Source of the DNA: Pagrus major
Taxonomy: Eukaryota; Chordata; Actinopteri; Spariformes; Sparidae
Direction: 5' to 3'
Length of the DNA stretch: 64,000 nt
Assembly: GCF_040436345.1 (NCBI RefSeq)
Contig: NC_133227.1
Coordinates: 18,047,501 to 18,111,500, forward strand
Below the pieces are notes generated by a model. It saw nothing but the letters and a program-made list of their open reading frames with translations. It did not search any database and was not told the DNA's origin. The position numbers and the translations under genes were made by a program. The number at the start of each line of letters is the position of its first letter. The stretch's first letter is position 1. Positions 14,406-59,169 of this stretch are shown here, piece after piece.

Positions 14406-15480
14406 GGTCATTCACTGTCCCTCAGGTTGTGGCATGTTGACACATATTGGGCAGCAAGGTATGCCCTATCTCCTTCTCCCAGGAGTATTTTTAATTTTGA
14501 TATGTCGTTCAGCTCTTTGAACTCTGAGATTACCAAATTGAATTTATTAAAATAAATGTTCCTGGTTTCGTTGAATGCTTTACATTGTAGGAGAAAGTGC
14601 ATCCCTGTCTCAACCTCACCTGTCGAACAATGACCACATGTTCTGTTTTCTTTTGGTTTTCATCATTTTTTTGTGTCTTCCTGTTTGGATTGTCAGTTTG
14701 TGGTCACTGAGCCTGCACTTGGTGAGGATCTGTCTCTGCTTTCTATCTCTGACAGTAGAGAGATATTCTGCTAATTCATAATCTCTTTTTAGGGCTAGAT
14801 AACATTCTAATCTACTTTGGCTTTTAGTTTCTTCTTTCCAATGTTCCAGATAGGTTTTTTTACATTGTGTTATAATTTGCTTTACTCTGATTGGTGTTTG
14901 GAGAGCAGTGTTGTTGTAAGGCTGGTCAGACTGTGTCTGAGAGGGGGCAGTTAGCCTCAGTACCAACTGACATAGGGGATTCTTTTCTGGGCTCAGCTCT
15001 TGAGTTTGGATGGCTTTGGAGTGGAGGGTGTCTCGGGGGCTGGATTTCAGGTGGTTAAAAAAGTTGAGCGTTCTCTTTTGAATGTTAATTATCAGTGGGT
15101 ATCTGCCTAATTCTGCTCTACATGCATTCGTTGGTGTGTTTCTGTGTACGTGTAAAATGTATCTGCAGAATTCTGCATGTAAAGATTCTGTTGGATGTTT
15201 GTCCCAGTGGGTATAGCTCTGGTGGACCCCATACTTCACTACCGTACAGCGCAATGGGCTGGATGACACTATCAAATATTAAGCCAGATTTTGACTGGAA
15301 TTTGGAAATTATAAAATTTGCTCTTAATTGCATGTAGGGCTCTTCCAGCTTTTTCTTTTAGTGCATTCACTGCCATGTTGAAACTCCCTGATGCTGTAAT
15401 GGTTATACCATGCTGTATGATTATTTATGGTAATTTGGTGTTTGTTCTCCTGACATCTGGGGCATTTTTGAAAGATCATC
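14184..15480 (-). mobile_element. LINE (unassigned APE-type), 3' half, separated from its 5' half by the CACTA insertion
   Basis: Minus-strand frames 15333-15118, 15275-14616 and 14602-14408 encode the C-terminal part of a LINE ORF2. Visible motifs are FDSVIQPIALYGSEVWGP, then YLEHWKEETKSQSRLECYLALKRDYELAEYLST, the zinc-knuckle region and MHFLLQCKAFNETR. It matches the plus-strand copy at 36830-37725 closely. The 3' UTR contains a (GT)n tract (14350-14404) and ends in CCAATAAAGCC-type sequence (about 14205). At 15480 the LINE stops abruptly where the CACTA element begins, and it resumes at 33822. The clade (I/Nimb-like is my guess) is not certain. Confidence 0.88.
14350..14404. repeat. (GT)n microsatellite
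   Basis: GT repeats with a few GCGT interruptions, in the 3' UTR of the minus-strand LINE; the plus-strand LINE copy has a shorter CA-rich counterpart near 37730-37760. Confidence 0.95.
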
Positions 15481-15960
15481 CCTGGTGAAAAAAAAGTGTA
15501 CTTTATTGTATTTCAAGTATATTCGTATTTTAAATAGTATATTGAAAATGTACTTACACAAATTGTACTTTTTTAAATATATAAAAAGTACACTAACATT
15601 ACACTTTCACGCTAACACTTTTAACACACTTGAAAATAATTATACTATATTACACTTTGTAGAAATATATTAAACTATAGTATACTTAAAGTGAAATTTA
15701 TGTGTAATTTCTAAAGTGTACTTATTTGAAATTTGTTTTCACACATACTTTTGATATAATTTAAAATGTATGCTAAAATTGTCATTGTAAAATACAATGA
15801 TAACATATTTTGAAAGTATACATTTTAATATCAACACTGTAATATTAAGTTTGAGTGTATTCAAAGTTACATTTCTGTCTAATTATGAAGTGAGGTTATT
15901 TACGCTTGTAGGCCTACTTCAGGGCATTCTTTTGGAAAGTGCTCTTTGAAAATGCACTTC
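15481..15960. repeat. left subterminal repeat region of the CACTA element
   Basis: This AT-rich stretch has no gene. It repeats short motifs such as AAGTGTACT, AAGTATACT and AAAGTACACT in both orientations (for example near 15495, 15550, 15588, 15685 and 15715). The right end (33430-33821) is built of the same words. In plant CACTA elements such arrays are binding sites for an element-encoded DNA-binding protein. Confidence 0.7.
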
Positions 15961-16110
15961 AACCCATTGATGAAATGTTGTGCTGTGTCAAAAATACACA
16001 GTTAGAAATGATTGCAGTTGTTACATAATGTTTAATCATTCTGGCAAAGAATGTGAATTACATCTTACAAACAAAACTACATTAAACAATTCACTTGATG
16101 TTGATGTCTG

Positions 16111-16314
16111 TAAAGTAGAAACTCCCCTTTTACTCTCTTTAAACAGTGGAAGCGCACAACATACATTTTGTCCTTGGACTTGATCATCACACATTTACGT
16201 TTGAGTGATTGGGTGTGCACGACAAATACATTATGGGTGAGATGCACCTCATTTATGATATATTTAACTGAACATCTCTACAGACCTTTTCTCCACTCTT
16301 GGCAAGCTCTTTTA
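16111..16314 (-). pseudogene. duplicated 3' end of the CACTA transposase gene
   Basis: Positions 16111-16314 repeat 16731-16949, the last coding bases and stop region of the transposase, with roughly ten percent differences by eye and small gaps. Shared words include ACATACATTTTGTCCTT, ACACATTTACGTTTGAGTGA and AAATACATTATGGGTGAGA. The two copies are 620 bases apart in the same orientation. The extra copy is out of frame and has no upstream coding sequence, so it is a duplicated fragment rather than an exon. Confidence 0.8.
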
Positions 16315-16748
16315 GAGACTCTGTGACTGCTGATCAAGTAATAGTGCATCACCATAATATTTTTTTTTCTTATATGAAATTAACTCCTTTCAGAATGTGG
16401 AAACTTTTCGTTTTCAGGTTTTTGTGAAAATCATTAATCATCATCAAGATTTTTTAAAGTGGTCTCACACAATCAGTGAAGTAGAACTACAATAACAGCA
16501 GTGTGGTCCAGGTGAATTTCTTAATTAACTTCCTCTTGTGATGCTTCTTGTTCACTCTTCATTTTAGCACACAGATTGTCACCAAGTCCATTCCCTGTGG
16601 GACGTTAAATCACTGGTTTGAGAATCGCTTGACACAAGTAGGGACAAGCAAGTAGCATTACTGTACCCAATAAGGAACATTGTCTCCTGTTAGCCCTACT
16701 CACTCCCTTCCCACACCCCCAGTCATCTGTTAAGTAGAAGTTCCCCTT

Positions 16749-19700
16749 TTAGTCTCTTTCAACATTGTTTGGAAGTGGAATGACATACATTTTGTCCTTC
16801 TTCTTAACCATTACACATTTACGTTTGAGTGATTGGGGGTGCACGGCAAATACATTATGGGTGAGAGACACCTCATTTATAAATGTGGAAGATATATTCA
16901 ACTGAGTATCTCTACAGACCTTTGCTCCACTCTTGGCCAGCTCTTTTACTAAAATACAGAAGTTGGTGGATGTGGATGAGGCCCCATCATCAGATGTAAA
17001 AGCCACCAGGGTCATAACTTCGCAGAATGTTCCATCATTTAACTCTACAACTGAATTGTTTCTCTTTGTAAGAGTTTTGTTGTCATATGAATGAAAAAAA
17101 ACGCTGCTACAAAAAAAACGGTCATAAAATAAACCTGAGTGAACAGTAATCCCTGAAAAACTTTCAATCGCCATCCTCTGTAACACAGATGTCTTACTTT
17201 TCTTTGGGCAGCCAAAACCTCTGACATGATGTTTAAAATCTTTTGATGTCTTTCTTAGGGTTGAGGCACTTTGGAGTTTATCAAATAATGTTACTATGCT
17301 TTCATTAGCATTTTCCATTGTTGTGGCTGCTTTTTTGGAGAGGCCCCTCCACCGAAGAAATCTTTTGACGATTTGTTTTGGCACATCTGTTGTCCCACTG
17401 AAAAATTTAAGTAACGTCCCATTAAAGGATTCAAATGGGAAGGTGGATGTGCCCCACAGTGGTCCCCAGTTGCGCACGCCTGCTGCTAAGTGCATTAATA
17501 AATGCACATTAAAAGAACAGTTGGCTGCCCCATAAAGTTTTCCAAAGTTCCGCACAAACTTTTGCAGAGCTTGTTCTGCCACATCCACATGCCTCTTTTG
17601 AATGGTATCCTGAAGAAGAGTGTGCATTGCAAAAATGAATAAAAAAAGATGATTCCAATACTTCTTCTTCAGGATGCCATTCAAAAGAGGCAGTGAATAA
17701 AACAGCAAAAATGACCTCCATTCTGACGCCTTCCAAAATTTTCTCTCTTTCAGTGATCTTGGTGCCCTTGTGACCTCCACGGGTGGTTTGATGGCCATCA
17801 GTTCTTGGTCTATTTCATTGACCTTGCCGCCCAAGTACCAGTCTTCATTGTGGTGCTTACTGTCCAGCCACAGAGATGTCATCTGTTTCGTGACACCCAG
17901 GCAGACACTGTGTTGGTACTCAGGAATGAATCCAGTGATCATTTTGAAGCTCTTAAGTTCCATCAAAGGAGATGGGCCTTTCACACCCATTACTGGATTT
18001 GCAGGTGTTGCCAGCATAGCATGCTGAAAATGATCCGTCTCTGTCCTTAAAGGTGGTTCTGGAGTTTCCCAGACATATGGACCACCACCAGGGTGAAGGC
18101 AGAAGTCACACCCATATTTGCCATTGAACTGTTTTGTGTTTCTCAGGAGGGGGCGGGCAACTGAATCTGAGGAGCACAGGAGTAAATGAACTTTGCTTGT
18201 ATGTTCTACTTTTTCAGAATCCCTCCATTTAATTCCAGTCTGTTCCAGTTCCTTGAGCTCTGCCACAAAAGCAGTTAAAAACGTGATCATGTTCGGCTTG
18301 CTTTTACCAAACCATAAGCAGGGCATACATATGTTGGCTTGACGATCTTTTGGTGACAGCTCTATGATTTGGCATTGAATTGGCCATATCTGAAAATTAT
18401 TGCTGTTAAAAACTGGAACGCCATCACAATTCCACATAACTGATATGTCATCAGCCCCCATTTGTCCACTCTGCTTGAGTTCTTCATATTCAGCCCCACA
18501 CTGGATGTCTGAAACACTGCCTGGAATTGATGCTCTTTCATTTAAATGTATCCCTGGTTTTTCCAAGACGTCCACTATTTGTCTTGATAGACTGTGGACA
18601 AGAAAGTAAGACCCAGCCTTTAAGTTTCTCTCAATATCAAACTCACTATTACAAGAAGAACAATTTTTTGGAGCTGTCTCACTGGGTCCCATATATGTTT
18701 CACAGTTCATACAATAAAAATGGGGCACATACTGGCCAAACTGTCCATACGCTTTGTGAAAAAGATATGAGGTTGCTGGCACCAAGCCAGGGAAATGTTC
18801 GTTAAACAATGTAAGAAGATCCTGAAGAGCTACTCCTGTCAAATTGTGTCTCAGTACATATGACATGAGTAAGAGCAGGCTCTGTCCTTTTGTGAGGGGA
18901 GCACCAGGGTATACAGGATCACCATCCTGATGTTTCTGTAATACAAGACAAGATTGCTTACATTCATATCTAAAACATATCAGGAAACATAAGCCAAAAT
19001 TATAATAACAGTGTTGACCTAATAAGAGAGACGTCTCATCATGTAATATAAAATAACAATATAGGCTACAGATTATGTAATTAAATGGTAGTACCTTGAA
19101 TTGGTTTGATTCTTCATTTCCGTCTTGGCTCCTCTCATCTGCTCTGTGTTCTTGTCCACTTTCATCATTTTCCTCTCTGTCATCATGTCCACTTCCGCCA
19201 TCTTCCTCTCTGTCGTCATGTCCACTCCCATCATCTTCCTCTCTGTCGTCATGTCCACTCCCATCATCTTCCTCTCTGTCGTCATGTCCACTCCCATCAT
19301 CTTCCTCTCTGTCCTCCTGTCCACTCCCATCATCTTCCTCTCTGTCCTCCTGTCCACTCCAATCATCTTCCTCTCTGTCCTCCTGTCCACTCCCATCATC
19401 TTCCTCTCTGTCCTCCTGTCCACTCCCATCATCTTCCTCTCTGTCCTCCTGTCCACTCCCATCATCTTCCTCTCTGTCCTCCTGTCCACTCCCATCATCT
19501 TCCTCTCTGTCCTCCTGTCCACTCCCATCATCTTCCTCTCTGTCATCACGTCCACTCCCATCATCTTCCTCTCTGTCCTCGTGTCTCTCTCTATCCACTT
19601 CTTTGTAAGTATCTGCATTACTATGATCTGTAAGACAAATCTGAGACAAATTGTAGAGCAATTAAGTGCAGTTGCAGTGATCTAAAACTAATGGTTGAAC

Positions 19701-22378
19701 ATTGGGACATAAAAATGGGATACATTTGCTATTATAGATAACATTTCTTTCTCCTGAACTTACCTTTTTAGTTACTTTTCTTCTGTAAAGGGATGTTCTT
19801 GGAACTGAAGATGTACCGAGAAATTTCTTGTAGACTAATTTTCTCTGTTTCTGTGGATACAGTAAAAACAAAGATAATAAGCAAACAGAACACAGTCGCT
19901 TTATGCACTAGCTATTACTAATGTTGATGTATGATTACCCTTGAGGACTTGGGCAAACATTTTAGGATGAAGATATAATTTTAGAAATGTGTTAACCATC
20001 AGATAGGCTGATCTTATAGCTGGGATATTATAATATAGAATACCAAAGATATATTGTGGTTTTGTAGCAAGCAGTTAATATCCTATTTTCCCACTGAAAG
20101 TCACAGTAAAAGTCAGAAGATATAGTATGTATTTTTTTTTTTTTTTTTACAATTTATACAAGTCTATAATGAGTGTTTGGGGTCTGTCAGTCTTTGGCGT
20201 ATAGTCAATAACAAGATGATTTTCATGTAAAAACAAGTAGTCCAGTCAATTTAGCTCATTTTGGACCCAAAAATAGAACTAATTTTAACAGAAGGTTTTT
20301 CACCATAAATAATTTATATGAGTTGTCCAGAACAACATACTAAAAGTCCTAAAAAATCCTAGTTGGGGAAATATGTTTAATTCTCATCATTATTTACTGT
20401 ATAAAGTCTATGGTGCCAATAAGCCCAGACAACAATACACCCCGATGGGGCTATTTTTTTTCCTTAACTCACAATCACAACGAAACTTTACACAATTAAA
20501 GTAGACATGAAAAGTAACATTTTTTGTATTACAAGTTTCTTAGAAAATGAATTTTAATATGCAAATGAGCAAAACACTAATGTAATACGCCCAAAATATA
20601 CCCATGCTTATTTTCTTCCTTTACTCTTACCACAATCACACTTCACACAATAAAAGTATACATGAAAAGTAACATTTCTTTATTTCAAGTTTATTGGAAA
20701 ATTAATGTTAAATATGTTAATGAGCTCAACACTAATTGACTTATGGCCAAGAAGCAAAAAAGCAGCAAACAGCAAAAACAGGGGCCAAATAACTTACTAC
20801 TTAGTCCCGCTCATATGTTGTTGAACATAACAGCATATTTAACATAAGATCACACACAGTCGTTGAAACGACTTTAATGTATTCTGACTTTCTTCTGATG
20901 TTCTCTGCAAACTGGGGGGAAAGTCGTTAGGTAAGGCTTGTTCTCTAAAAGAAAATAAGGAGTTTAGAAAGCAACTGGAGACGAGACATATTCTGCTCAT
21001 TTCTGCTTCTTGACATGGTACCTTGATGTCTAAAAGTAATGTTAGTAACATGCTTTGGTCAGAAAAAGCATGGGAGCGTGGGCTTGAATATTCACATCAC
21101 CCGGCTTGTAATAAGTATTATAGTATAAGTAATAATGTAATAAGCAGGGTGAAATTAAAACGGCTTGTAAGAGACACATTTTCTGACTATGGCAGTTTAC
21201 AAAATGTTGACATTGACTCAACCCTTAAACTTACGTTTAAGGGGTGAGAAGGCACTCTGGATATGCAAATACACATACTAAAGCAATGAAAAAGTGAGTT
21301 TTGCATAATATGTCCGTCAATATAAGTATTTTGTGGCAACCAGTGACCCCGGTAAGTGTGGCAAGTGACATCAAATTGTGTGTATGCATAGGTCAAGTGT
21401 GGCAATTGACTTCACTCAGATTGTGTAGGTTAACTTACTGAATGGACATGAATGTGTTAGTTATTTGGCCCCTGTTTTTGCTGCTTGTGGCTTCATGGCC
21501 ATAAGTCAAGTAGTGTTTTGCTCATTTACATATTTTAAATTAATTTTCCAAGAAACTTGAAATACATATGTTACTTTTCATGTACATTTTATTGTGTGAA
21601 GTGTGATTGTGTTAGGTGTGAAGGGGGAAAAAAGCCTATTTGCGTGTATTTTGGGCGTATGCCATTAGTGTTTTGCTCATTTGCATATTCAAATTCATTT
21701 TCAAAGAAACCTGAAATACAAAAAAATGTTAATTTTTATGTATACTTTCATTGTGATAGGAGTAAAGGGGGGGGGGGAAGCCTATTCGGGTGTATTTTGG
21801 GCAGTGTAAGGCTCATTTGCATATTCAAAGTCATTTTCAAAGAAACTTGTTATACAAAAAATGTTACATTTCATGGATACTTTCATTGTGTAAAGTTTCA
21901 TTGTGATACGAGTAAAGTGAAAAAATAGCCCCATTGGGGTGTATTGTTGTCAGGGCTTATCGGCACCATAGACTTTATACAGTAAGCATATTTCCTTAGG
22001 GCTTTTAGTATGTTGTTCTGGACATCTCATAGAAATTATTTATGGTGAAAAACATACAAGCACACAAGGACATAGGCCTACAATACTTAAATATAACACA
22101 GTTGGAGCATGGACAGTATGTGTGTGTGTATGTCTGTGACCCCCCCCCCCCCCCCCCCGCCCCCAACCACGGCTTTTAACCAGGCTACATTGTTGCGAGT
22201 TGGCTCCTACAGTAAGCTACAGTATGTGCATTGTGCACTGTTACTTTTTTTTTGTATGTTGTAGCCCACAGCATTTTACCTGGTTCGTTTGAAGTCTTCT
22301 ATATTTAGTTGTTCTTGGCGTATTTGGTTGAGTCTCGTCAGAATTCAAATGTCTCTTTAAGTTTCGTTTTGCTGGCAT
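16749..22378 (-). CDS. CACTA/EnSpm transposase (tnp2-type), four-exon model
   Basis: Proposed exons on the minus strand are 22378-22280 (start MPAKRNLKRH), 19850-19764, 19640-19095 and 18935-16749, all joined in phase 0 with GT-AG signals; the total is about 972 residues. Exon 3 holds an acidic 11-residue repeat. Exon 4 is the transposase. It has a Cys cluster (CMNC..CSSC, about residues 319-339), WNCDGVPVF (Asp near 415) and LWFGKSKPNM. These are followed by CSSDSVARP (Asp near 501), the zinc-binding FNGKYGCDFCLHPG (about 514-527), EYQHSVCLGV (about 583-592) and FPFESFNGTLLKFF. This succession matches animal EnSpm transposases of the tnp2 group, which cut at the element ends and insert elsewhere in nuclear DNA. 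Exon 4 is uninterrupted, so this gene may be intact. The frame through the intron at 19094-18936 is also open by chance. The start is chosen because exon 1 is the only in-phase donor with an ATG next to the shared promoter. The exon 3 acceptor at 19641 is the least certain point. Confidence 0.82.
19140..19590 (-). repeat. 33-bp coding minisatellite (acidic repeat of the transposase)
   Basis: About thirteen units of 33 bases encode REEDDGSGQED-like 11-mers on the minus strand. Units differ at one variable pair (RD, QE or HD), and the three-proximal units degrade to EDGGSGHD and ENDESGQE. Because the unit is a multiple of three, all three plus-strand frames are also open here; those frames are artefacts. 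Confidence 0.92.
20295..22053. repeat. 1.76 kb fold-back structure in the first transposase introns
   Basis: Two long imperfect inverted arms (about 20295-20794 and 21459-22053) flank a 660-base loop. Outer ends share GTTTTTCACCATAAATAATT. Inner ends share AGTTATTTGGCCCCTGTTTTTGC-type sequence. Inside the arms a roughly 100-base module (GAAACTT, ATGTTACATTTTCATG, GTGATA and similar) repeats about three times. No coding frame is present. It looks like a non-autonomous fold-back or long-TIR MITE inserted in the intron between transposase exons 1 and 2; a perfect target duplication was not identified. Confidence 0.7.
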
Positions 22379-22626
22379 GATGATTTATTTCCCACAAATT
22401 CCCAGCTAAAATTGGTGTAAACACAAGAAGAGAAAAAAAAGAGGCGCCGAGTCTCTGACGTGCCCAACAAGCGCATCTATTTTAGTTTCGTTTTTCAATT
22501 TCAGCCAATCAGAGCTGCGGGCATTGTCATCCGTTGCATCTGAGCGCGAGGTCGAGCGCGAGGTCACTGGCTTCGCTTGAAAGCAGGTTACAGTTTTGCA
22601 GGACAGGTTATAGAGGGTGAAAAATA
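22379..22626. promoter_or_regulatory. candidate bidirectional promoter of the CACTA element
   Basis: The 248 bases between the two divergent start codons are GC-richer than the surroundings. They contain CCAAT (22505-22509) and a perfect tandem of GAGCGCGAGGTC (22542-22553 and 22554-22565). No TATA box is obvious. Head-to-head gene starts this close imply shared control; the tandem is a plausible factor-binding site. Confidence 0.55.
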
Positions 22627-25600
22627 ATGTCATTCAAATTCGCCATCTACTACTTATTTGATAAAACACTTAAAGTGGAAAGTACGTCGCTCATTGTTGA
22701 TAGCGACGACCAGTTCACCCAAGTGGCCGCCCAGCCGGACCTTGATGACGACGCGAACTGGATTGAAATAAAATGGCCCACGAGAAAAGAACCATCGAGG
22801 ACGGTGGCTGCTAAGGTCCTGTTATTTGGAGGCAAGTATACCTATTATTTTGCCAACCTTTTCAGCTAGCTAGCAGCTAACTGTTTATTTTTTGTGAATG
22901 TCTTGGCAGAAATTTTATTTATTCTTATCGTTACGTCAGATTCCTACAGAGACCTCGTGTCGAAGAAGAATTTGTTCATTCTCGGTAAGGATATATGGGC
23001 CGAGGAGGAAAGCAGGGGAGTCCGCATGAAAAAGAAAATGTGTGAGACCGAGGTAGTGAGGCCTAAAACGGCAATGCAGGTGAGTGCAACTTCACATGCT
23101 GACATGCTATCTCCAATACTTTTACTAGCTACACATTCAGGTGCTCTCTTTTTATGGTAGAGGTTAAATTAAAATAGTTTTCCTAAGTAAAAAGCAGTGA
23201 AGCAAAGCAAAAACACTACAAATCATGCATAAAAAATCCCACTCATGTTATGTATAATTATTTCATTATTAATTCATTCATTAACCCTCATTTAACCAGG
23301 CAAAATTGCTAAGAATAAATTATTATTTGGGCAATGGCCTGGTAGCAGGTGAAGGATCTCCTTACAGTAGTTGCTAAACTACATACAGAGTACATTTTTA
23401 CTGATTTGTTCCATCTGACTGATATTGTCACATTTGACAACATTAGATGAGTAATACTGAAACATCATGATGTTGCAGCATTTTTGTTGTTGTAGCTGCC
23501 AGGGCTCCATGTCTATGTTCCCACAGCCCCATGTTCCCACATTTCAGATGCAATGACACCTCAGTGTGAATACGTGTGGAAAGATGTCTATGGGTGTGAT
23601 GTTATGTGTACAAAATGGTAAATGTATGTAGGTGGAAACAATTATCCTTGCAAAGGACGATAAAATCCCAAATCTAATCTATCCACGGTGTAACTTATAG
23701 CCTACCTCTTAAGTATCCAGTACGATCTATATATTGTTATTGTCACCAAGTAATATGTGTGGTGCGCGAAATAAATGAAATATGAAGTCAGAAGTCTTTT
23801 ATTGTTATTACATGTAAACATATTTAGGAATTTGAGTCGGTGGGACAGAGTGTATAGACAGCAAGTGCAAAACAAGACAGTGGATAACAAGGCAGTGGTT
23901 CTTAGAATGTGGGAACATAGGAATGACCCCGCTGCACTGCTAGAGGTATGTCTAGATTCAACTAGCCTACTGTATGCATTTTCACATACAGAGACAACAA
24001 ATAGGCTAAATCTGAAGGGAACATCTAAAAGGTGAACCTGATTGCACAAAGCTTTCGGTAGGATGGCAAAATCCCCCAAACTTTGAAACCACTAGTTCAA
24101 TCAATAACAGTGTGCCAAATCAATTTTTTTTTCCAAAATCTTTGAGCTTTTTTACACCTGTCAGTAGGATGTAGTGAAGCAACACTGGGCAGAAATTAAC
24201 GATGTAAAACTATATAAAAAGAAGCAAAAAGGCATCACTAAACCTTGAATTTTAAAACAGTTTAGGTGTATTTAATCAATGATCAAAGATAGTCAAGAAG
24301 CAAGAATTTTGCAAGATACGCAATATGAGAAATTTTTCCTTTGTGTGCTCTCTATATAATCAATTATCTACAATCATGATTAATGATTATCGAGGCTTTG
24401 TCATTTGCCACTCATGCCCCACCTCTGCTTTCATTGTCTGTCAGGATGCTGATTATATTATTTCTGTTTTCTGTAGTGTAAATTTATCCTGCATTAAATG
24501 AGGCTTAGTATGCTAGTGAGAACTTTACTTTGTGATGACAGTCTTGTCTTTGTTTTAACGTCATAAACAGGCAAAGCAAACTAGGATTAAAGAGGCAGCC
24601 AGGGACCAGGTGTTACAAAACCTAAAGACTTCCCTGTCTCAGAAGAGGGCCCTAGACACACAAGCTCAACACTGCAGTTCTGAGGATGAATCTCAACAAC
24701 GTGTTCATGGGGTGAGGCGTACTTTTTTTCTTGAGCAGGTGTCTAGATTTTTTACAACAGCAAAAGCTGTGGTGTCCTGAGATCACATGAACTGGCCTCT
24801 TATGACAGCAGGTAATGGACTCGTATAATCAATATAATTACTCTAAGAATGCAGAGGTTTGTTAGGCCTATATGAAATAAGTGTTTGCTTGCATTAGGAG
24901 TAGCCTAATGATTTTTAAAACCAACGATAGTAATAACAATAACAAAACTAAATTAAGAAATGTACGGCCTAGTGTCTGATCCACTGGCCTATTAAAAGAG
25001 GAAGTGCAGTTAGGAAATAGGAGGTGTGCAATGGAAATGTACATAGCACAATGTATGCACTAAAAGGAGACCATATAAAGTCACATATTAGCTAAACATG
25101 ATGTAAAGATATCAACATGCAGTGGTGTATTTACATTTTTTTAAAAAGGTGGGGCACCACCATTTGATAGAAGGCATGATGATGAATAGGCTTAGTATGC
25201 TAATGAGAACTTTACTTTGTGATGACAGTCTTGTCTTTGTTTTAATGTCATAAACAGGCAAAGCAAACCAGGATTAAAGAGGCAGCCAGGGACCAGGTGT
25301 TAAACCTCAAGACTTCCCTGTCTCAGAAGAGGGCCCTTGACACACAAGATCAACACTGCAGTTCTGAGGATGAATCTCCACAACGTGTTCATGGGGTGAG
25401 GCGTACTTTTTTTCTTGAGCAGGTGTCTAGATTTTTTACAACAGCAAAAGCTGTGGTGTCCTGAGATCACATGAACTGGCCTCTTATGACAGCAGGTAAT
25501 GGACTCGTATAATCAATATAATTACTCTAAGAATGCAGAGGTTTGTTAGGCCTATATGAAATAAGTGTTTGCTTGCTTTAGGAGTAGCCTAATGATTTTT

Positions 25601-28600
25601 AAAACCAACGATAGTAATAACAATAACAAAACTAAATTAAGAAATGTACAGCCAGGGCGGTGTTTAGCTCAGTTGGTAGAGCACCCGCCCCATGTGTTGA
25701 GGCTACAGTCCTCACTGCAGGCGGCCCCGGTTTGAATCCCACATCGAGCGGCCCTATCCTGCGTGTCATTCCCCCCCTCTCTGCCTCCCATTTCCTGTCA
25801 CTCTCTGAACTGTCCTATCCATTAAAAGCATAAAAGCCCCCAAAATATACTTTAAAAAAAAAAAAAAGAAATGTACGGCCTAGTGTCTGATCCGCTGGCC
25901 TATTAAAAGAGGAAGTGCAGTTAGGAAATAGGAGGTGTGCAATGGAAATGTACATAGCACAATGTATGCACTAAAAGGAGACCATATAAAGTCACATATT
26001 AGCTAAACATGATGTAAACATATCAACATGCAGTGGTGTATTTACATTTTTAAAAAAAGGTGGGGCACCACCATTTGATAGAAGGCATGATGATGAATAG
26101 GCTTAGTATGCTAATGAGAACGTTACTTTGTGATGACAGTCTTGTCTTTGTTTTAATGTCATAAACAGGCAAAGCAAACCAGGATTAAAGAGGCAGCCAG
26201 GGACCAGGTGTTAAACCTCAAGACTTCCCTGTCTCAGAAGAGGGCCCTTGACACACAAGATCAACACTGCAGTTCTGAGGATGAATCTCCACAACGTGTT
26301 CATGGGGTGAGGCGTACTTTTTTTCTTGAGCAGGTGTCTAGATTGTTTACAACAGCAAAATCTGCGGTGTCCTTCAGACACTTGTCAAATTTCATGATAT
26401 AACTAATAATTTTCCTACTTCTATCATATAAACATTTTCCTTCAGGGAAAGCGAGCAAAGATTAACAAGGCAGCAAGACGTGTGCTTTTACCACTGCCAT
26501 CCAGTCCCAGTTCCGATGATGCCACATACATAGGGAGTCCACAACGGCATGACATTGTAAGTCATCCTAGCTTTTGTGTACTCAGACACAAATTCTTTCT
26601 CTGTTGTATTGCTTTCACAGCTATTTCCTCTTTTCAATTTTCAGGACCATGCCTCAGATGAAGAGCTGGTTTTCTCCCCAGCCCAGAGAACGGCAAGTAC
26701 ATTTATACTAAATATTATATGATTGTGATAAAAGTAAATCGTATGGAATGAATAGGTCAGGCAAAGGTCAGAGATCTTACACCCAACTGCATGTAAAACT
26801 TAATCTCATAATAGTTTCATATCAGATTTACACATAAAGTCCTTTTAGCTCTCATGAACATGTCAACTAAGCATTTTTATTTAATATATTCAACAATATA
26901 ATCATTTTCAAAGACCTTTCATTAATGTTTTGTGCCACACGGTAGTGTGCAGTGTTTCCCCTACCGTTCTATTGGCGGGGTGGCCCGCTTTCACTATTTA
27001 ACTCATTTTCAGCTGCGTCAGCTTTACTTTGAAAGTCCAGTGGATCTGGATCAGAACAGAGCGTGTGTACGGAGGGAGAGGTCACACTGATCCGCTGCTG
27101 TTTACTTCTCTGAGCGTCTCCGCTGAGAGTTGTCTGCGCCTCCTCACCCGTTGAGCTGAGCGTCAGGAGCTCATTATATATAGCAGCCTATATTTTATCT
27201 TTTATAAAAGAAATTATAAAAAAATTTAACGGTGGGGGAAACATGTGTTTACATGTGCGTCATGTATCTGCTATTAAAAAGATGCACTTGTCACTTATCA
27301 CTTTAAATAAAGTATATTTTTGGGATAATTGGTATAAAGTTAATAATTTCACACATGTGCCCCCCCCCCCCCCGCCGGACTCATCCACCCGCCGCCCCCC
27401 CAAGACAAAACGGCTAGGGGAAACACTAGTGTGGATGAGAAAAGTGTCCTTTAAACATACAGTATTTCCTTTGAGGTGGGTGGGTGTGTGTGTGTATATT
27501 TTGTCACTAATAACAAAGGGCTAATAATAATAAAAACAGTATTTCCTCACAATTCCTCACATCAGGTTCTGTAAATATCTGTTGTACCTTAATGAGGTTT
27601 AATGTGATTCTAATCTCTTTTTTTCTCCCTTATGCCTGGAATTTCATTCTCTCTTGAAGAAGCTGACAGATGATAGCAGTGGTCATGGCATGGCACCTGG
27701 AATAAACAACATTTTGTCATCCCTTCATGGTTGGTGTTCAGATTGCAATTAGAGGGGTTGACACATCAGAAAACACTATGATTATTAAATAATGATTCAG
27801 GGTGTTTCCACATTATTTTCCTGTACTGAACTTAAGTACCATAATGTTGACCATCTGACAAACCAAATGTTTTCCCACTTATTATTTCATTCACCTAGAC
27901 CTGCCGGAAATGATTAAATTAATGAGGGAGTGTGTGGAGTGTGTCCGGGCATTGAAGTCCTTGTTCGGGGGGACCCCTTCATCTGCGGCATCGTCATCTC
28001 CTGTGGACAGGGACATTGAAATGGTATGTTATAATTGAGGGATGAACGTATTCATTACTTGACAGGTCATTCATAAAGAATTCTATATTTTCACTAGGGA
28101 CCTTTTGTCTTTGGCAGCATCATCTTGTTGGTAATTGGGACAGGAATAAAGTTATGAGATTTAATACTGTAGGTTGTATTTTTCACAAGTCAGTCATATG
28201 AATTATCTTGTTGTCAGTGCGAACCTCAACACCACTGGCCATAGTCATAGCACTCCAGTGTTTCCGCCAGGATTTTTTTAAAGAGTGGCGGCGAGGGTGG
28301 GCTGATCGACGGGGGGAGGGGTGCGCGCGACCGGATCGTCGACTAGTCGCTGATGACATCATTCATATTTTTCCCATCATAACTAAAATCCCAGGAGGAG
28401 GGAAATGCTCTGCAACAATCTGTTTCACTGACTGACAGCTCATGCACAGAAATGAGTCCACAGTACAGCAGCTTTATAAACAACAAGCTGTAAATCAGTT
28501 TGTTTTTTTGTAACATATAGCCTACAGGTGCAAAAGAAAATACTGTAATAAATTTTGTTGTTTAAGATGTTTAGAGTAGCGTCAAGCTGCCACCACCTTT

Positions 28601-31600
28601 GTTAACTCGGTCTGGTCCGGTATTAGAGGTCAGAGAGCACCCACCACAGACAGATATGTATAAAAATAGACAATCTTTATTTCCAATTAATTTTTAAGTT
28701 AGGGACGTTTGCATCCAGCAGGCCAATGAGGGCAGCTCCAGCAGGTCAGGCAGGTAACTCCACCATCCGGCGACACCAACACTGCACACAAGAGAACACA
28801 CCCAAAAAGGGACACTGCACACAAATCACTGCACAGCAACTAGAACAGGTATCACACTACACACAATGGGAGCTCAAAATCACACTGGCTCCTTAGGGAC
28901 CACTACAACATAAAGGGTCGAACCCCACTCTTAACACTAGGGGGAGATAGAGCGCTGCAAGACTAATGAGCTGCCCTTAACGGGGCCGCTGGCACACTGA
29001 CGTCAGTTAATTAAAAACCTTTCTTTAAGAGGGAAATCATATAACACTCGGACATTAACTGACAAGACTACAAGTAAGTTTATATGAGAATCATTAAAAT
29101 AATGGACTTATCCTGCCCCGGTCTGGTGACGAGACCCCCCCGTGGGGCCTAGGCAATGGAACTGGGCTGTGCACCGGAGAAAAGGCTGCTCAGCTGGCAG
29201 GCGTGGAGTCGTTCAGCGTAGTCGGCGTCACTGATGTGGCTGCTGCATGAGAGCACAGGTAAGGCACGGCTACTTCCCGGTCCCTCGCTACCTAAAGGAG
29301 GTTTCTGGCCTCCCCTCTTGATACAGGACTGATCGACACGACGAACTCCCCTACTCAGCTGTCTTCACTGCCGGCAGCACTATAAGCTGCGAACAGCACC
29401 CACCCGCCACAGTGCCACTGGCTCCCAAAAGCTCAGGCCGACGGCTCTCACGTCCTCCCGTCTCTTCCTCCCCGCGCTCTCTCCACCGCCTCTTTTCTTC
29501 CCAGCCGCTGACCCCGGTGGGTCTCCTCCCCCTCCCAGGTGAACTGCATCAGCCCTTGATTGCCCCCCACTCCGGGGAGTTCCTCCGCCCCACGTCACTC
29601 CCTCACTACAATACTGTAGCTACTGTTCATTAAACAATTAGGGAGGAAAACGACACACAGGCCTCGTCACCATCACAGTCCTGCTCAGTCACAGTTTCAC
29701 TCACAGTTTTAGTTTTTCCTGGTTGGTTGCTGCTGTTGTTGTTGTGCGCGACGTAAAGCTGTCGATATGAGCGGAGTTTTTTTTTTGTTTTTTTTAATTG
29801 CCGGCAGCCCGGACACACTGCCCGCGGAAGCGGCAGTTTCTCCTGCTCTCTCTCTCCGCGCCGGTCAAACATCAACCCGTCTGTATCTGCTCGGTTTTCC
29901 AAACACAGGTCTGTCTCTAGCGCTGTATGTAGCCTATGGATGTGTCTTGTGTGCAGACGCAACTGACAAATACTTATAGACGGACAAGCAAACTTAATCA
30001 TCATTTATTTTATTTTGAAAATTGACCGGATTCTCTCGCCTTTTCTGTGCCCGACTTCCTGTCTGGTACGCGCTCGTTCTATCCAGCTTGACTGCGCTCG
30101 TATTTTTTTCATTCAGCGCACTCAGCTGTTGTTTCAAGCCGCTACTCTTGTAGCCTACTGTTACATGATCAGCGACTAGTCGACGTCAAGCTCAAAACGT
30201 CATTGTGGAGCAGGGGACTAGTCTGTGCAACCTCTAGTGGAAAACCTGCTTTACATTGTTTTAACATTAAAAAAAAAAAAAAAAAAATCATCATTCTGAA
30301 GGTGTGGCGGCTTTTATTTTGCCGTGGCGGTGCGCCACGATCAATTACATGTAGCGGAAACCCTGGATGTCTGTTCATTCCTCAAATGATAATAAAAATG
30401 TTAATTTCACTTGATAAATGAAAACTTATTCAGATTAATTTAACTCAAATCACTTCAAAAAGGTTAATAATTAAAGTAACAAAGCTACACCAAAGGTTAT
30501 CATTAAAGTATCATTGACAAAAGCACAAGTACCAAAGTACTTCTATAAAATAATATAACAAATATTCAACCATTGCATCACCAAACATACACAATCAAAA
30601 CATTTGGGAAGCATGCTCTCCAAAATTAAGCTTCTACTATACCAGTGGTGTCTTTAATCATCGATCAGGAGCTGTGAGGTGTCTCCAGGAGTAGGCAAGA
30701 GAACTGGCTGAGCCAGTTCCAAACATTTCAGACCATGCTTCCTGTATGGGTACACACATAGATATATATAAGAACTAGATGACTCACCCGCAGCTGTTTC
30801 CCAATGACAAAGCGTAGCCAGTACGGCGGCCATCTTGGGACGGGCAACTCTCTCCCTCAGAGCATTAAGCCTATGCTGCATGTTCTGATATAATGACTAG
30901 AACTTGCTCAGTTTTTGTCCAATTTCAAAACGGTTTGATTTTTATGAACGTTTATGCAGTTACGATGCAGCATATTTAGAATCACGGATCATTTTAATAA
31001 TGTATTTTTTTTTGTAAAAGTAACATTATAGTGACATTATGCAAATAGTTAAAGTAATAGCTACATACTGATTTATTTTACACAGAGTTATGAATAGTTT
31101 TTTTTAGTGAAGATGACTGGATCACCTATATACTGCACTGTAACTGCAGCCAGAGTCAGAGCAAGTTGCCCGTCCTCATATGGCCGACTGTGAGCTACGC
31201 CTGCGTGTAGTCCGATCTACCCCCTTGGGTACACAGGTGAATGTGCTCCCTCAGGCACTTCCTTCCTCTTACCTGGGGTTTCAACACTGATGTGTTTGCC
31301 CCCTGCAGGTTTGGAGTGTCAGGGATCTGGGATTGTGGCTCTCTCCACAGTGATGCAGGTTTTGACACAACAAGTACTTAGAGATAATTTGTCAATTTTG
31401 CCCTGTCTTTCTCTCCCATATGCAGCACTCATTGGCAGGCAGCACTGTGATGGTGACAAAGAGGGCCTTCCAGCGGCTGAATAGGTCTCGGATGGCCATT
31501 TTTGCCCAGGAGCTGGCTGTCCTCGTATTTACAAAGGAAGGCCTTGCAGAATCAACCCTGACGGGGAAATCTGGGAAGGGGGGGCCGCCCAAAACACAAC

Positions 31601-32662
31601 TTGACATTACAAAAGTGCAGGCCATTACTGGTATGTAATTGTTTCACATGTAGTCTATTTAAAAGGTTCTGTGATTTCTGTAGCAGCTAGACCACAAAGA
31701 AACAGATCACCAGTAATTATTCAATACATGTTGGATTATGTACTGGTAGCAATATTGATATATTATACTGATAACAGTTTCTCAGAGTTTCCAGAGGGGT
31801 ATTCCAGAAAGTAGGTTATGTGAAAATCCTGAGATGATGAAAACTCTGGGTTTTCCATTCCTGAATAAACTGTGACTGTCACCATGGTAACTGACTCTGT
31901 GAACTTAACCTGCTGGCTGGCAGGTTTACATGATGAAACCTTGAGTCTGACAGGGGCTGTGCTTTCCTTCTCAACAGCATCAAGTAAAAATAAATAATTC
32001 TCATAGTTTTACAACAGGGAGATTATTTAGATTTGTTTAGATGAGCTCTCGTTCCCTGAGCTGAATGGAACCGCTTCTCATCAGTCTGAACAATATTCTC
32101 AAACCAGCTCCACATCGAATATCAAGCTACACGTCACAGCTGACGTGCTGCTGTGCTGCTCCCAGAACATCCTTTTTATTTTCATCAGTTTGCAGGTTAA
32201 AGATTGGTTGGAGATCTGGAAATACAGTTATATCAGGTCACATTTTGAAAATACACAAGTCAAAATACACAAGTCAGATGTCCCAGCCCCTTTCCTCAGA
32301 CTGCTCTCCATTCCGCAAACATAGGTGAAGTAGACATGAAGGCATCTGATTGGTTTTTGCTTTGGGAGCAAAAAGCATGGATTGCTCAGAGTTTTGTCAG
32401 TGCAGCTGCCACATACTCAGAGTCGACTTACCTAACCTAACCGGGTAACGCTCAGAGTTTGCTGAACCTCCTTTCTGGAATAGGCCTCTGATGTACTGTT
32501 GCAAAATTACTAAGTATGCTGCATGACTTTACAGTATCTCCTGTCTATTTGGTCAACAGATGCTGTTCTTGAGGAGTTTCCAAATGCATCTGTGTCTGAT
32601 GTGCGTGCGGCCATCAGAAGAAAGTGCAACAATGAGCATTTCAGCCAGAAAAAAGGGAGTGA

Positions 32663-32666
<4 letters not shown>
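22627..32666 (+). CDS. BEN-like domain protein carried by the CACTA element, twelve-exon model
   Basis: Proposed exons: 22627-22831, 22940-23079, 24571-24711, 25258-25395, 26169-26306, 26446-26556, 26645-26692, 27660-27729, 27899-28023, 31323-31358, 31426-31630 and 32560-32666. All phases agree, giving 487 residues ending at TGA 32664-32666. Residues 1-115 form an N-terminal domain (MSFKFAIYYLFD, WIEIKWPTRKEPSRTVAAKV, DSYRDLVSKKNLF). Three near-identical 46-47 residue repeats and a fourth diverged one follow (about 116-291), rich in Lys/Arg and Ser/Glu. After a linker (PEMIKLMRECVECVRALKSL) comes a C-terminal BEN-like domain (about 373-480) with MVTKRAFQRLNRSRMAIFAQ, LAVLVFTKEGLAESTLTGK and DVRAAIRRKCNNEHF. 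BEN domains bind DNA or chromatin factors. Introns 1 and 7 appear to use GC donors (GCAAGT). The 36-base exon at 31323 is the weakest; an alternative acceptor at 31308 breaks the frame. A DNA-binding accessory role for the transposon is inference. Confidence 0.72.
23080..24570. other. intron 2 of the BEN-like gene; nothing else recognised
   Basis: AT-rich sequence between the donor CAG/gtgagt (23079/23080) and the acceptor tcataaacag (24561-24570). A short plus frame at 23775-24035 has no family resemblance. No insertion with clear ends was seen. Confidence 0.5.
24504..26345. repeat. segmental triplication containing one BEN-gene exon
   Basis: A block of about 0.69 kb occurs nearly identically at 24504-25190 and 25188-26098 (the second enlarged by a SINE), with a third partial copy at 26099-26345. 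Each block starts at GCTTAGTATGCTA and carries the acceptor tcataaacag, the exon and the donor GGG/gtgagg. Exons 1 to 3 are 141, 138 and 138 bases, so all keep phase 0. The three encoded peptides differ at only a few residues. Confidence 0.93.
25650..25865 (+). mobile_element. tRNA-derived SINE in a BEN-gene intron
   Basis: It has a Pol III A-box-like TTTAGCTCAGTTGGTAGAGC near 25663-25682 and a B-box-like GGTTTGAATCC near 25730. The unrelated body ends CTCCCATTTCCTGTCACTCT, with TTAAAAGCATAAAAGCCC before an A-rich tail. The target duplication AAGAAATGTAC flanks it at 25639-25649 and 25866-25876. The site is empty in the first copy of the triplicated block (about 24957), so it inserted into the second block only. 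I recognise it as a common percomorph SINE type. Confidence 0.9.
26693..27659. other. intron 7 of the BEN-like gene with a hAT-like insertion
   Basis: The intron starts with the GC donor ACG/GCAAGT and ends at the acceptor before AAGCTGACAG. Most of its middle is the hAT-like element at 26950-27428. A short frame at 27243-27524 overlaps poly-C and is not a gene. Confidence 0.6.
26950..27428. mobile_element. non-autonomous hAT-like element
   Basis: The left end CAGTGTTTCCCCTA and the right end TAGGGGAAACACTA are inverted copies apart from the outermost base, the form usual for hAT ends. The interior has a C run (27361-27373) and no transposase. Flanks share AGTGTG but a clean 8-bp duplication is not visible. 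Confidence 0.7.
28256..30365. mobile_element. hAT-like element, 2.1 kb, no intact transposase
   Basis: The left end CAGTGTTTCCGC and the right end GCGGAAACCCTG are near-inverted. Inside them GTCGACTAGTCGCTGAT (about 28337) is mirrored by ATCAGCGACTAGTCGAC (about 30168). The interior is GC-rich between 29100 and 29900, and its short frames do not resemble a hAT transposase. The flanking 8-mers do not match, so the duplication has decayed or an end is misplaced. It lies in intron 9 of the BEN-like gene. Confidence 0.6.
30366..31322. other. rest of BEN-gene intron 9; nothing recognised
   Basis: AT-rich sequence leading to candidate acceptors at 31308 (ccccctgcag) and 31322 (gagtgtcag). Only the second keeps the reading frame with exon 9, although the first is the stronger signal. 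Confidence 0.45.
31631..32559. other. intron 11 of the BEN-like gene; nothing recognised
   Basis: The intron runs from donor ACTG/gtatgt to acceptor tttggtcaacag. Around 31790-31960 and 32330-32480 there are GGTTCAGCAAACTCTGAG-like and AAACCTGAGTC-like words facing each other, with CCTATTCCAGAAAG-type ends (31797-31812 reads GGGGTATTCCAGAAAG and 32467-32485 reads CCTTTCTGGAATAGGCC). This suggests an unclassified MITE of about 690 bases. Confidence 0.5.
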
Positions 32667-32723
<57 letters not shown>

Positions 32724-32733
32724 TGTGTGTGTG
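32663..32733. repeat. (GT)n microsatellite overlapping the BEN stop codon
   Basis: GAGT units and about 30 GT dinucleotides start at the last codons of the BEN-like reading frame. The TGA stop is part of the GAGTGAGTG lead-in, so expansion or sequencing slippage here could move the stop. Confidence 0.95.
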
Positions 32734-32896
32734 AGTGAGAGTGTGAGTGTGTTAGGAAATGTAAGGAGTGTTGTTTTTGATTGTTCATGATTCCTTACTT
32801 GCCATGCCATACTGTTACCTGTTTTTGTTGATGGAATGTTGGTGTGATGCCACAAATGTTACTCCTGTTTTTTATTGATGGAATGTTGGTGTAATG

Positions 32897-33140
32897 CATA
32901 GATATATACACGTAGATGCCGCCTCTGACGCTGCTGCCCATTGGAACGGATCGTCGCCGCCGCCGCCATCTTGAGGGGGAGGTGAATGGGTTTTGTTATG
33001 TTTTGTTTTACCTCGTACTGCCGTTCGTGACATGCATGACGTCATCTATGGTTTTTACCATAGGAACTCCCCCTCAAGATGGCGGCCGCGACGACATTCC
33101 TGACAAGCCCGAATGCGGCATCTACGTGTATATATCTATG
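32897..33140. mobile_element. 244-bp MITE with 26-bp perfect inverted ends and 9-bp target duplication
   Basis: The first 26 bases (CATAGATATATACACGTAGA...) are the exact reverse complement of the last 26. GGTGTAATG flanks both sides (32888-32896 and 33141-33149). Inner sequences CCGCCATCTTGAGGGGGA and TCCCCCTCAAGATGGCGG are also mirrored. A 9-bp duplication is typical of Mutator-like elements. It sits in a small tandem repeat (units of about 47 bases ending TTGATGGAATGTTGGTGTAA). Confidence 0.88.
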
Positions 33141-33234
33141 GGTGTAATGCCACAGATGTTACTCCTGTTTTTTATTGATGGAATGTTGGTGTAATGCCAC
33201 AAATGTTACACATATTCTTACAGTACAGCATTAT

Positions 33235-33821
33235 TGTATTGTACTGATCTTTGAATATATTAAAAATATATTTTTTTTCACTTGGAAGTAGTCCTACAAG
33301 TCTTTAAGTCTGCAAAGTAGAAAGTAATATAGCAAAGTAATGATAAAGTATATTGACTATTAACTGCAAAGTATGCTTTTTAGTAATTGAAATAAGCCAA
33401 AAGTATAATTGAGCTTATTATTAACACAATAAGAATATATTGCAAATATAAAGCTTATGTATTTGTAAGACACCAACATCTAATTTTTAATGTGCTTGTA
33501 ATACAAACAAAGTACACTTTAATTTAACTAATTAGGCATATATTAGTACATGAAATGTCATGTACTTAAAGTGCACTAAATATACTTTAAGTTGTTCCAC
33601 TTTAGTACACAAAAGTACACTAAATACACTTTAAGTTGAGCTTTTCTACAACTTAATTACAATTTAAATATACTTAACACAAAATTAGTTGTTCCAATTT
33701 AGCACTCTTCAAGTTAACTAATCTTAAACACACTTGAAATAAAATGATGATTAGTGCGGCTTGAAGTACACAAAAGTATGCTAAATTTTAGTACACTTAG
33801 TACATTAATTTTTCACCAGGG
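33235..33821. repeat. right subterminal repeat region and terminus of the CACTA element
   Basis: Repeated words include AAAGTACAC, AAGTGCACT and ACTAAATACACTTTAAGTTG (near 33570-33597 and 33606-33640). ACTTGAAATAAA and AGTACACTTAGTACATTAA lie close to the end. They mirror the motifs of the left end (15481-15960). There is no gene. Confidence 0.75.
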
Positions 33822-34735
33822 ATGACATTAGTTTTCCTCATATTTACTGCCAGGGCCCAGTTCTGACAGTACTTTCCTACTGTGTCCAGCTGTTGCTGTA
33901 GTCCTTGTTCAGTAGGAGACAGTAGAACAAGGTCATCAGCATAAAACAGAGACTTCACCTCTCTATCTAAGAGGGAGAGGCCAGGAGCAGCACATTGATC
34001 CAACTCAACAGCAAGTTCATTTATATCCACGTTAAATAAAGTCGGACTTAAATTGCAACCCTGGCGTACACCTCTTCTCTGGGTGAAGAATTCAGTTTGT
34101 TAGTCTCCAATTTTAACAGCACACATATTTTCCAAATACATTGATTTAACCAGATCATACATTTTGCCCCCTATACCACAGTGTAGAAGCCTGTAATAGA
34201 GCCCTTCATGCCAAACAGAGTCTAAAGCTTTCTTGAAATCAATGAAACAAGTGAGCATTTCACCATTTTTTGTTTGGTGTACATGTTTGTTAATTAAAGT
34301 GTGAAGGGTATATACATGGTCGGTGGTGCGGTGTTTTGGGAGGAAGCCAATTTGACTTTTACTCAAGATGGAGTGTTCCTCAAGGAAATCTAGCATTCTT
34401 TTATTTAGAATACTACAGAATAATTTACCTAGACAGCTGCTGACACAGATGCCACGGTAGTTATTAGGGTCTGATTTGTCCCCACTCTTATGAATGGGGG
34501 AAATGAGCCATTTGCACCAGATGTCAGGAAAACATCCTGACTGTAATACAATATTGAACAGCTTTAACACTGCACCCTGCATCTCTGGAGTGCTGCATTT
34601 GAGCATTTAATTTTTAATGCTGTCTAGACCACAAGCTTTCCTCGGCTGGAGAAATTTTGTCTGCCTGGTCAATTCTTCCCAAGTAATTGGGAAATCAAGG
34701 GGGTTTTGGTTGTTTTTAATTGTTTGTTTGTCAAA
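33822..34735 (-). mobile_element. LINE (unassigned APE-type), RT half of the split minus-strand copy
   Basis: Minus frames 34606-34100 and 34030-33797 give RT motifs: WLISPIHKSGDKSDPNNYRG, SQIGFLPKHRTTDHVYTL, FIDFKKALDSVWHEGLYY, then SLFYADDLVLLSPTE with an intact YADD. The LINE then runs into the CACTA end at 33821 and continues at 15480. A stop follows VKIGD near 34100. The 5' end (34735) is truncated within the EN-RT linker and abuts the 5' end of the plus-strand copy. Confidence 0.9.
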
Positions 34736-54543: not shown

Positions 54544-54667
54544 CAGGGCTGGACTGGGCCATTTTTTTAGGCCGGGCATTTTTTACTTAGGCCAGGCCAC
54601 CACCTGTTTTTTGTTTTGTTTTGTTTTTTTTTTGGGGGGGGGGGGGGGTATTTATTTATTTATTTAT

Positions 54668-54701
<34 letters not shown>

Positions 54702-54720
54702 TTTATTTATTTATTTTATT

Positions 54721-56457: not shown

Positions 56458-56801
56458 GGTCAGATAAGCTACTATAAACTACTTTTTATCACGCTCGGTC
56501 TTAGCTGTTTTTACAGGCACCTTGTAGCCCGAGAGGGAGGGGACCTGCCGGGCAGACCCTGCCCTCAGCTCATTGGTCCAGCAGCTACATCAGTCATGAA
56601 CAATGGGCCGAGCTACCAGTTTATGCACCAATAGGAGGGCTTATATACCGTCATTCGCCTACAACGGTATGTTAAATTGTTATTATATTTTATGTCGTAA
56701 AATAAATAAAATAAATAAAAATAACGCAGGCCAGTAGGCCAGAAAGCCTCGCAGGCCACCGGGACAATGCCCGGTTTGCCCGTATTCCCAATCCGGCACT
56801 G

Positions 56802-56941
56802 GTCAGAAGTGGCCGTGAGCAGCTACAGACGGAAGATTAGCCACGGGGGAGCCATGGGAAGAAACAAAAAGTCTCCGGTCGCGTGAGTGAGTGTTAAGCA
56901 ACATGCTAACAGAGGTTGCCACGGCGTGTGATGGCTACAAG
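56802..56941 (+). other. Gypsy leader between the two hAT copies, with the native gag ATG
   Basis: The 132-base remnant of the Gypsy leader (plus duplicated targets) contains a ten-codon upstream frame (ATG near 56852, ending TGA). It also contains the native gag start ATG at 56931-56933, followed by GCTACAAG, which is the target duplication of hAT copy 2. Gag resumes in frame at 59206. Confidence 0.8.
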
Positions 56942-57285
56942 CAGTGCCGGATTGGGAATACGGGCAAACCGGGCATTGTCCCGGTGGCCTGCGAGGCTTT
57001 CTGGCCTACTGGCCTGCGTTATTTTTATTTATTTTATTTATTTTACGACATAAAATATAATAACAATTTAACATACCGTTGTAGGCGAATGACGGTATAT
57101 AAGCCCTCCTATTGGTGCATAAACTGGTAGCTCGGCCCATTGTTCATGACTGATGTAGCTGCTGGACCAATGAGCTGAGGGCAGGGTCTGCCCGGCAGGT
57201 CCCCTCCCTCTCGGGCTACAAGGTGCCTGTAAAAACAGCTAAGACCGAGCGTGATAAAAAGTAGTTTATAGTAGCTTATCTGACC

Positions 57286-59022: not shown

Positions 59023-59092
59023 AATAAAATAAATAAATAAATAAAAATAAATAAATAAATAAATAAATAATAATATAAATAAATAAATAAAT

Positions 59093-59123
<31 letters not shown>

Positions 59124-59169
59124 AACAAAACAAAACAAAAAACAGGTGGTGGCCTGGCCTAAGTAAAAA

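Follow-up and report, generated by a model that had tools for sequence, protein, structure and literature searches.

A TRC-like CACTA transposon of Pagrus major that carries a tnp2-type transposase and a divergent BEN-domain gene

Introduction

What is a gene for a BEN-domain protein doing between the ends of an animal DNA transposon? The question is raised by a 64,000-nucleotide stretch of the Pagrus major genome (NC_133227.1, positions 18,047,501 to 18,111,500; hereafter the window, with positions counted from its first letter), in which an 18,342-bp insertion encloses a tnp2-type transposase gene together with a BEN gene in head-to-head orientation. The reading preferred here, to which a probability of roughly 0.6 is given, is that of an apparently complete cut-and-paste transposon of the TRC branch, in which a tnp2-type DDE transposase is paired with a lineage-native BEN protein that would assist the ends of the element. 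Gene numbering suggests that the same two genes are neighbours in two other fish, and on that ground the BEN gene appears to be a functioning component of the transposon.

Boundaries and target site of the element

15480..33821, unstranded: whole element (13-bp inverted ends without mismatch; AT duplication from the empty-site alignment to a LINE copy)
15478..15479, unstranded: left AT target duplication (empty-site alignment)
33822..33823, unstranded: right AT target duplication (empty-site alignment)
15480..15492, plus strand: left terminal inverted repeat CCCTGGTGAAAAA (exact match)
33809..33821, minus strand: right terminal inverted repeat CCCTGGTGAAAAA (exact match)

The insertion is bounded by perfect 13-bp inverted ends, CCCTGGTGAAAAA, which have no exact match in the window beyond the two termini (n=2), and is flanked by a duplicated AT. 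When the flanks are joined with a single AT, they align to an uninterrupted copy of a long interspersed nuclear element (LINE) at 36369-37128 on the minus strand within the window, with 699 of 760 columns identical and 38 gap columns, all away from the junction. The gap-free junction against an intact LINE copy directly documents a single insertion event that duplicated 2 bp. A preliminary description of this DNA had proposed matched inverted ends, an AT duplication recognisable against the empty LINE site, and a tnp2-type element enclosing the BEN gene; all of these hold, with both reading frames open between the matched ends, while the start of the element, formerly placed at 15481, moves one base earlier to 15480.

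The transposase gene

22280..22378, minus strand: exon 1, tentative, start codon at 22378 (open spliced model; N-terminus alignment to relatives)
19764..19850, minus strand: exon 2, tentative (open spliced model; N-terminus alignment to relatives)
19095..19640, minus strand: exon 3, with acidic 33-bp repeats (DREEDDGSGQE) (spliced model; repeats common to Siphateles P0029)
16749..18935, minus strand: exon 4, with the catalytic region (D, D, C(2)C, H(3)H, E) and the stop (motif pattern)

The transposase model comprises four exons on the minus strand and encodes 972 residues with no internal stop. Exons 3 and 4 are supported by relatives, with Siphateles P0029 matching at 80% over model residues 67-615, whereas exons 1 and 2 are tentative: in comparisons with the N-termini of 12 relatives, four beat at least 499 of 500 shuffles, five are intermediate, and three (P0016, P0054, P0103) do no better than shuffles. 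The tnp2-type identity proposed in the preliminary description is borne out by a verified open reading frame (16749-19661, minus strand) and by the residue pattern D, D, C(2)C, H(3)H, E, which animal relatives retain. PF02992 (Transposase_21) is detected at E<=1e-3 in 11 of the 21 members of alignment A2 (the window piece among the 21; best 1.8e-10). The window transposase itself scores 19.9 bits over the whole open reading frame and 20.6 bits over a 739-residue piece, against a curated cut-off of 28.6. The putative catalytic D and E residues are assigned from the motif pattern; D148, D234, C253/C256, H455/H459, and E479 (P0002 numbering) are invariant in 21 aligned rows, and in a 77-row alignment all the D, D, C(2)C, and H(3)H positions are invariant and E513 is nearly so.

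The 739-residue query retrieves 164 proteins at E<=1e-3, and the best 120 of these include P0007 (89%), a Carassius gibelio protein (79% over 95% of the query), and one of Merluccius polli (77%), together with relatives of about 31-44% identity in echinoderms, a hemichordate, an oyster, Hydra, and ticks. Beyond the stop, at 16159-16314, lies a 90-91% duplicate of the 3' end of the coding region (16783-16948).

The BEN gene

22379..22626, unstranded: region between the two start codons, 248 bp (spliced models)
22627..22831, plus strand: exon 1, GC splice donor (alignment to relatives; open spliced model)
22940..23079, plus strand: exon 2 (alignment to relatives; open spliced model)
24571..24711, plus strand: exon 3, first of three copies (repeat scan; alignment to relatives)
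25258..25395, plus strand: exon 4, second copy of exon 3 (repeat scan; alignment to relatives)
26169..26306, plus strand: exon 5, third copy of exon 3 (repeat scan; alignment to relatives)
26446..26556, plus strand: exon 6 (alignment to relatives; open spliced model)
26645..26692, plus strand: exon 7, GC splice donor (alignment to relatives)
27660..27729, plus strand: exon 8 (alignment to relatives; open spliced model)
27899..28023, plus strand: exon 9 (alignment to relatives; open spliced model)
31426..31630, plus strand: exon 10, first part of the BEN domain (Pfam; alignment; open spliced model)
32560..32666, plus strand: exon 11, remainder of the BEN domain and stop (Pfam; alignment; open spliced model)

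The second gene encodes a BEN-domain protein. The profile search proposed in the preliminary description gives 35.3 bits for PF10523 (BEN) with an initial 501-residue model and 38.7 bits with the C-terminal 103 residues, against a cut-off of 23.2, and the same family is detected at E<=0.01 in 18 of the 31 members of alignment A5, many of which are fragments. Outside the BEN domain, no Pfam family scores above cut-off in this protein. By sequence, the domain matches 4ix7, the BEN domain of insv, in the PDB at 8e-7. The predicted structure of the relative P0123 is weak overall, with a confidence (pLDDT) of 59.4, and reaches 77-92 over residues 301-380. In a Foldseek search with this structure, each of the first 16 rows is a BEN structure, 4x0g (Bsg25A) among them; the best, at 1.8e-4, is the one row at E<=0.001, and root-mean-square deviations are 7.6-14.9 over whole alignments.

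The gene model, built on relatives in Gadus, Melanotaenia, Perca, Sparus, and others, has 11 exons on the plus strand and 475 residues and is open to the stop at 32664-32666. The divergent orientation and the BEN identity given earlier stand, whereas the former twelve exons and 487 residues are revised. From the initial 501-residue model of this analysis, which also had 12 exons, the exon at 23862-23945 was removed because it is absent from every other row of alignment A1 (0 of 10), and the junction of exons 1 and 2 was corrected, being contradicted by most A1 rows that reach that far; P0124 retains a reading that resembles the discarded junction. A further candidate exon at 31309-31358 was rejected, as its 50 bases disrupt a frame that joins cleanly without them. 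The triplicated exon, with steps of 684 and 911 bp, is single in the 10 other rows of A1. The 248 bp between the start codons are presumably a shared divergent promoter, a reading that depends on transposase exon 1. P0136 of Triplophysa tibetana is an 875-residue predicted protein that combines a BEN-family sequence with PF24764 (precomputed domains), perhaps a fused gene model.

Linkage of the two genes in other fish

The survey of linkage covers the best 120 of the 164 transposase rows and 20 and 40 BEN rows, each row being one representative of a 90% cluster, with a ceiling of about 8000 scored candidates on both searches; adjacency is read from gene numbers, and contigs of equal size are taken as the same contig. 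Among the matches listed, nine species have both proteins, and two of the nine carry them under consecutive gene numbers. Merluccius polli has N1851_020460 as its transposase and N1851_020461 and N1851_020462 as BEN pieces, all three with a contig size of 179707; in Siphateles boraxobius, LOC143714556 and LOC143714557 are transposase and BEN, both with a contig size of 12127432. Gene numbering, rather than a reading of the loci, therefore suggests that the two genes are neighbours in two other fish.

These neighbouring numbers in two other genomes argue against the chance insertion of an unrelated BEN gene, or of a BEN-bearing element, inside the transposon, a most improbable account even though other apparently nested repeats lie within the element. 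The capture of a host gene once by an ancestor of the lineage, and its later carriage as passive cargo, is an unlikely explanation too. In animals, BEN genes occur as ordinary host genes, and among the matches listed a BEN relative is found in part of the transposase-bearing species only, both of which suit such a capture. Passive cargo should, however, decay, so that two observations count against it: the BEN frame of the window is open over 11 exons, and identity to the linked partners is alike for the two proteins, 71.1-76.5% for BEN and 71.5-80.2% for the transposase.

Repeated motifs in the ends and the proposed role of the BEN protein

15480..15899, unstranded: left subterminal region, 22% guanine plus cytosine (GC), with AAGTACACTT-like sites (at most one mismatch) at 15494, 15546, 15561, 15586, and 15714
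33402..33821, unstranded: right subterminal region, 26% GC, with AAGTACACTT-like sites at 33510, 33613, 33622, and 33789

With at most one mismatch, AAGTACACTT is present in 5+4 copies in the terminal 420 bp of the two sides (shuffle mean 0.35, maximum 5), and eight such sites are found elsewhere in the 64-kb window. The summed excess of repeated 9-mers in the ends is 80 versus 26.6 in shuffled sequence, a value reached by none of 1000 shuffles, and, when six end motifs are compared with shuffles, five stand at 0/1000 and ACTTTAAGT at 11/1000. The AAGTACACTT-like repeats of both ends are plausible candidate binding sites. In the mechanism proposed here, the BEN protein would bind these sites, would bridge or mark the ends for the transposase, and may also regulate the shared promoter; a BEN fold would then do the job that TNPA does for plant En/Spm by means of a different fold.

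A BEN protein that is native to the element could instead act at the level of chromatin, either by counteracting silencing or by repressing the shared promoter in a self-limiting manner, and this possibility is tentatively retained as the lesser expectation. It is favoured by the 248-bp spacing of the start codons, by the presence of BEND6 and BANP in complex with methylated DNA among the matched solved BEN domains, and by fungal transposons that carry TET/JBP genes thought to aid escape from methylation-based silencing (PMC12730594, in the part available). Against it, the motif repeats lie within the ends, the expected place of binding for an accessory transposition factor, and no AAGTACACTT site with at most one mismatch occurs within 22379-22626.

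Several observations weigh against a transposon with a dedicated end-assisting BEN partner. Among the matches listed, neighbouring numbers are confined to two of the nine two-protein species; the pairs of Epinephelus coioides and Leuciscus waleckii lie on an equal-sized contig under numbers that are not neighbouring, and the listed representatives of Gadus morhua, Cyprinodon tularosa, and Triplophysa rosa lie on separate contigs, while for Paramormyrops kingsleyae and Misgurnus anguillicaudatus both proteins are listed and their relative position is not placed. The T. rosa transposase P0034 falls in the window transposase's own clade and yet its listed BEN relative is on another contig, which is therefore somewhat against strict linkage, and a further Siphateles BEN protein (P0138) is on another contig. 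As annotated, the linked partners are also incomplete: in Merluccius, BEN is split into two pieces and internal stretches are missing from the transposase; in Siphateles, P0147 spans the C-terminal part of BEN only and P0029 ends early. Scans for linked copies in collections of viral contigs and of bacterial and archaeal genomes confirmed no relative, yielding peptide patterns only (24 and 120 stretches in the viral contigs, 47 in the bacterial and archaeal genomes). In addition, AAGTACACTT was picked after inspection of the ends, the commonest single 9-mer (5 copies) is equalled by 14 of 1000 shuffles, the PF02992 score of the window transposase is under the cut-off, and the ends are CCC..GGG, whereas those of CMCT elements are mostly CA..TG.

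Phylogeny and signs of mobility

In the transposase tree, the window sequence groups with Merluccius and P0007 (support 97/95), with Siphateles in the sister set. In the BEN tree, where the window is represented with one copy of the triplicated exon and Merluccius by two joined fragments, the window belongs, together with Merluccius and other fish, to a set of 10 rows (100/100) that has no resolved branching for its position and that leaves Siphateles outside. Siphateles, Perca flavescens, and Paramormyrops each have BEN relatives on two or three contigs, and P0132 of Paramormyrops is nested within the cypriniform rows, out of keeping with the host relationships of these fish; both patterns are as expected of a mobile gene. 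The placement of P0132 in the tree fits horizontal transfer, with paralogy as an alternative.

Nested repeats and other features of the window

The first intron of the transposase contains a 1.76-kb region (20295-22053) whose inverted arms are long (up to 105 nt, 89%); a nested foldback element is the probable explanation. A BEN intron holds an inverted match of at least 14 bases at 28337-30185, and inspection by eye shows repeat-like ends immediately beyond it, which suggests another nested repeat enlarging the element. Beyond the element, a near-perfect palindrome at 54608-59135 has 2,194-nt arms that match at 99%, with a tandem array of 12.2 copies of a 69-bp repeat in each arm, and overlapping tandem arrays with periods of 46-120 and a unit containing GGGACCTCGCAGGTTTCCTGCTCGGGCCC occupy 40728-41485.

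Comparison with known systems

An AT target duplication is suggestive of PIF/ISL2EU, a membership that is set aside here, as the transposase is tnp2-like with C(2)C/H(3)H. According to the available part of one source, the CMCT clade is marked by C(2)C and H(3-4)H between the second D and the last E and has mostly CA..TG ends with target duplications of 2-5 bp, while canonical EnSpm elements have CAC..GTG ends and 3-bp duplications (PMC12730594). The window transposase carries C(2)C and H(3)H between the second D and the last E, and the 2-bp duplication lies within the CMCT range; the ends, CCCTGG..CCAGGG, and the 2-bp AT duplication differ from those of canonical CACTA/EnSpm. A CCC core at both ends and a 2-bp duplication are instead features of the TRC transposons, SmTRC1 of Schistosoma and its animal relatives, which have a Transposase_21-type transposase (PMC1636069, in part), a type that the window protein resembles at a score below cut-off; the Tribolium ends begin CCCTAGTAGC... 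and those of the present element CCCTGGTGAA... Because the CCC core and the duplication match TRC, and the CAC..GTG and CA..TG end types do not apply, the element fits the TRC branch of animal CACTA, a placement by ends and duplication rather than by a tree with SmTRC1. Of the CACTA/EnSpm label in the preliminary description, the CACTA kinship is kept and canonical EnSpm gives way to TRC.

The differences from TRC elements lie in size, 4.5 kb for SmTRC1 versus 18,342 bp here, and in the BEN gene, which the available text on SmTRC1 and its relatives does not mention (PMC1636069). As far as that text goes, its authors expected in 2006 a second protein with the DNA-binding job of TNPA and found no conserved one, and the second proteins of TRC elements, SmTRC-PrA and SmTRC-PrB, have no detectable relatives (PMC1636069). 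Fungal EnSpm/Plavaka elements with TET/JBP genes resemble the present element in joining a CMCT-clade transposase to an extra gene, which there encodes a dioxygenase and here a BEN protein of DNA-binding type (PMC12730594, in the part available). No described pairing of BEN with CACTA was found among the papers listed in the literature searches, with Repbase entries outside their scope; in the accessible part of PMC5704228, BEN is present only in the reference list and CACTA in a separate context. The BEN domain is shared with insensitive, Bsg25A, and BEND6. These three are host genes, and it is a speculative and rather improbable extension that an animal CACTA branch uses a BEN end-binding factor and that transposon-borne BEN genes, passed horizontally between fish, became a source of some host BEN regulators; the pairing nevertheless raises the question of whether some BEN regulators derive from transposons.

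The functional analogy is with plant En/Spm, where TNPA and TNPD correspond to a second, DNA-binding-type protein and a tnp2-type transposase, as they would here. Plant En/Spm has repeated motifs near both ends, and such motifs are found in both subterminal regions of the present element, with the motif chosen after inspection. The plant elements have a CACTA core, whereas a CCC core, a 2-bp duplication, and a BEN domain characterise this one. Furthermore, the second plant gene is a splice form of one transcription unit, while here it is divergent with its own start; TNPA acts on the promoter in both its methylated and its unmethylated state, and TNPD stabilises the binding of TNPA to DNA (PMC1636069, in part), actions that serve as analogy, not evidence, for the BEN role. 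The DNA-binding fold, the divergent pairing, and the end motif repeats speak in favour of the BEN protein as a putative functional counterpart of TNPA. If so, a conserved BEN partner would be a candidate for the missing second DNA-binding protein of animal TRC elements, and the two-protein system would be open to reconstruction and testing in cultured cells or in fish.

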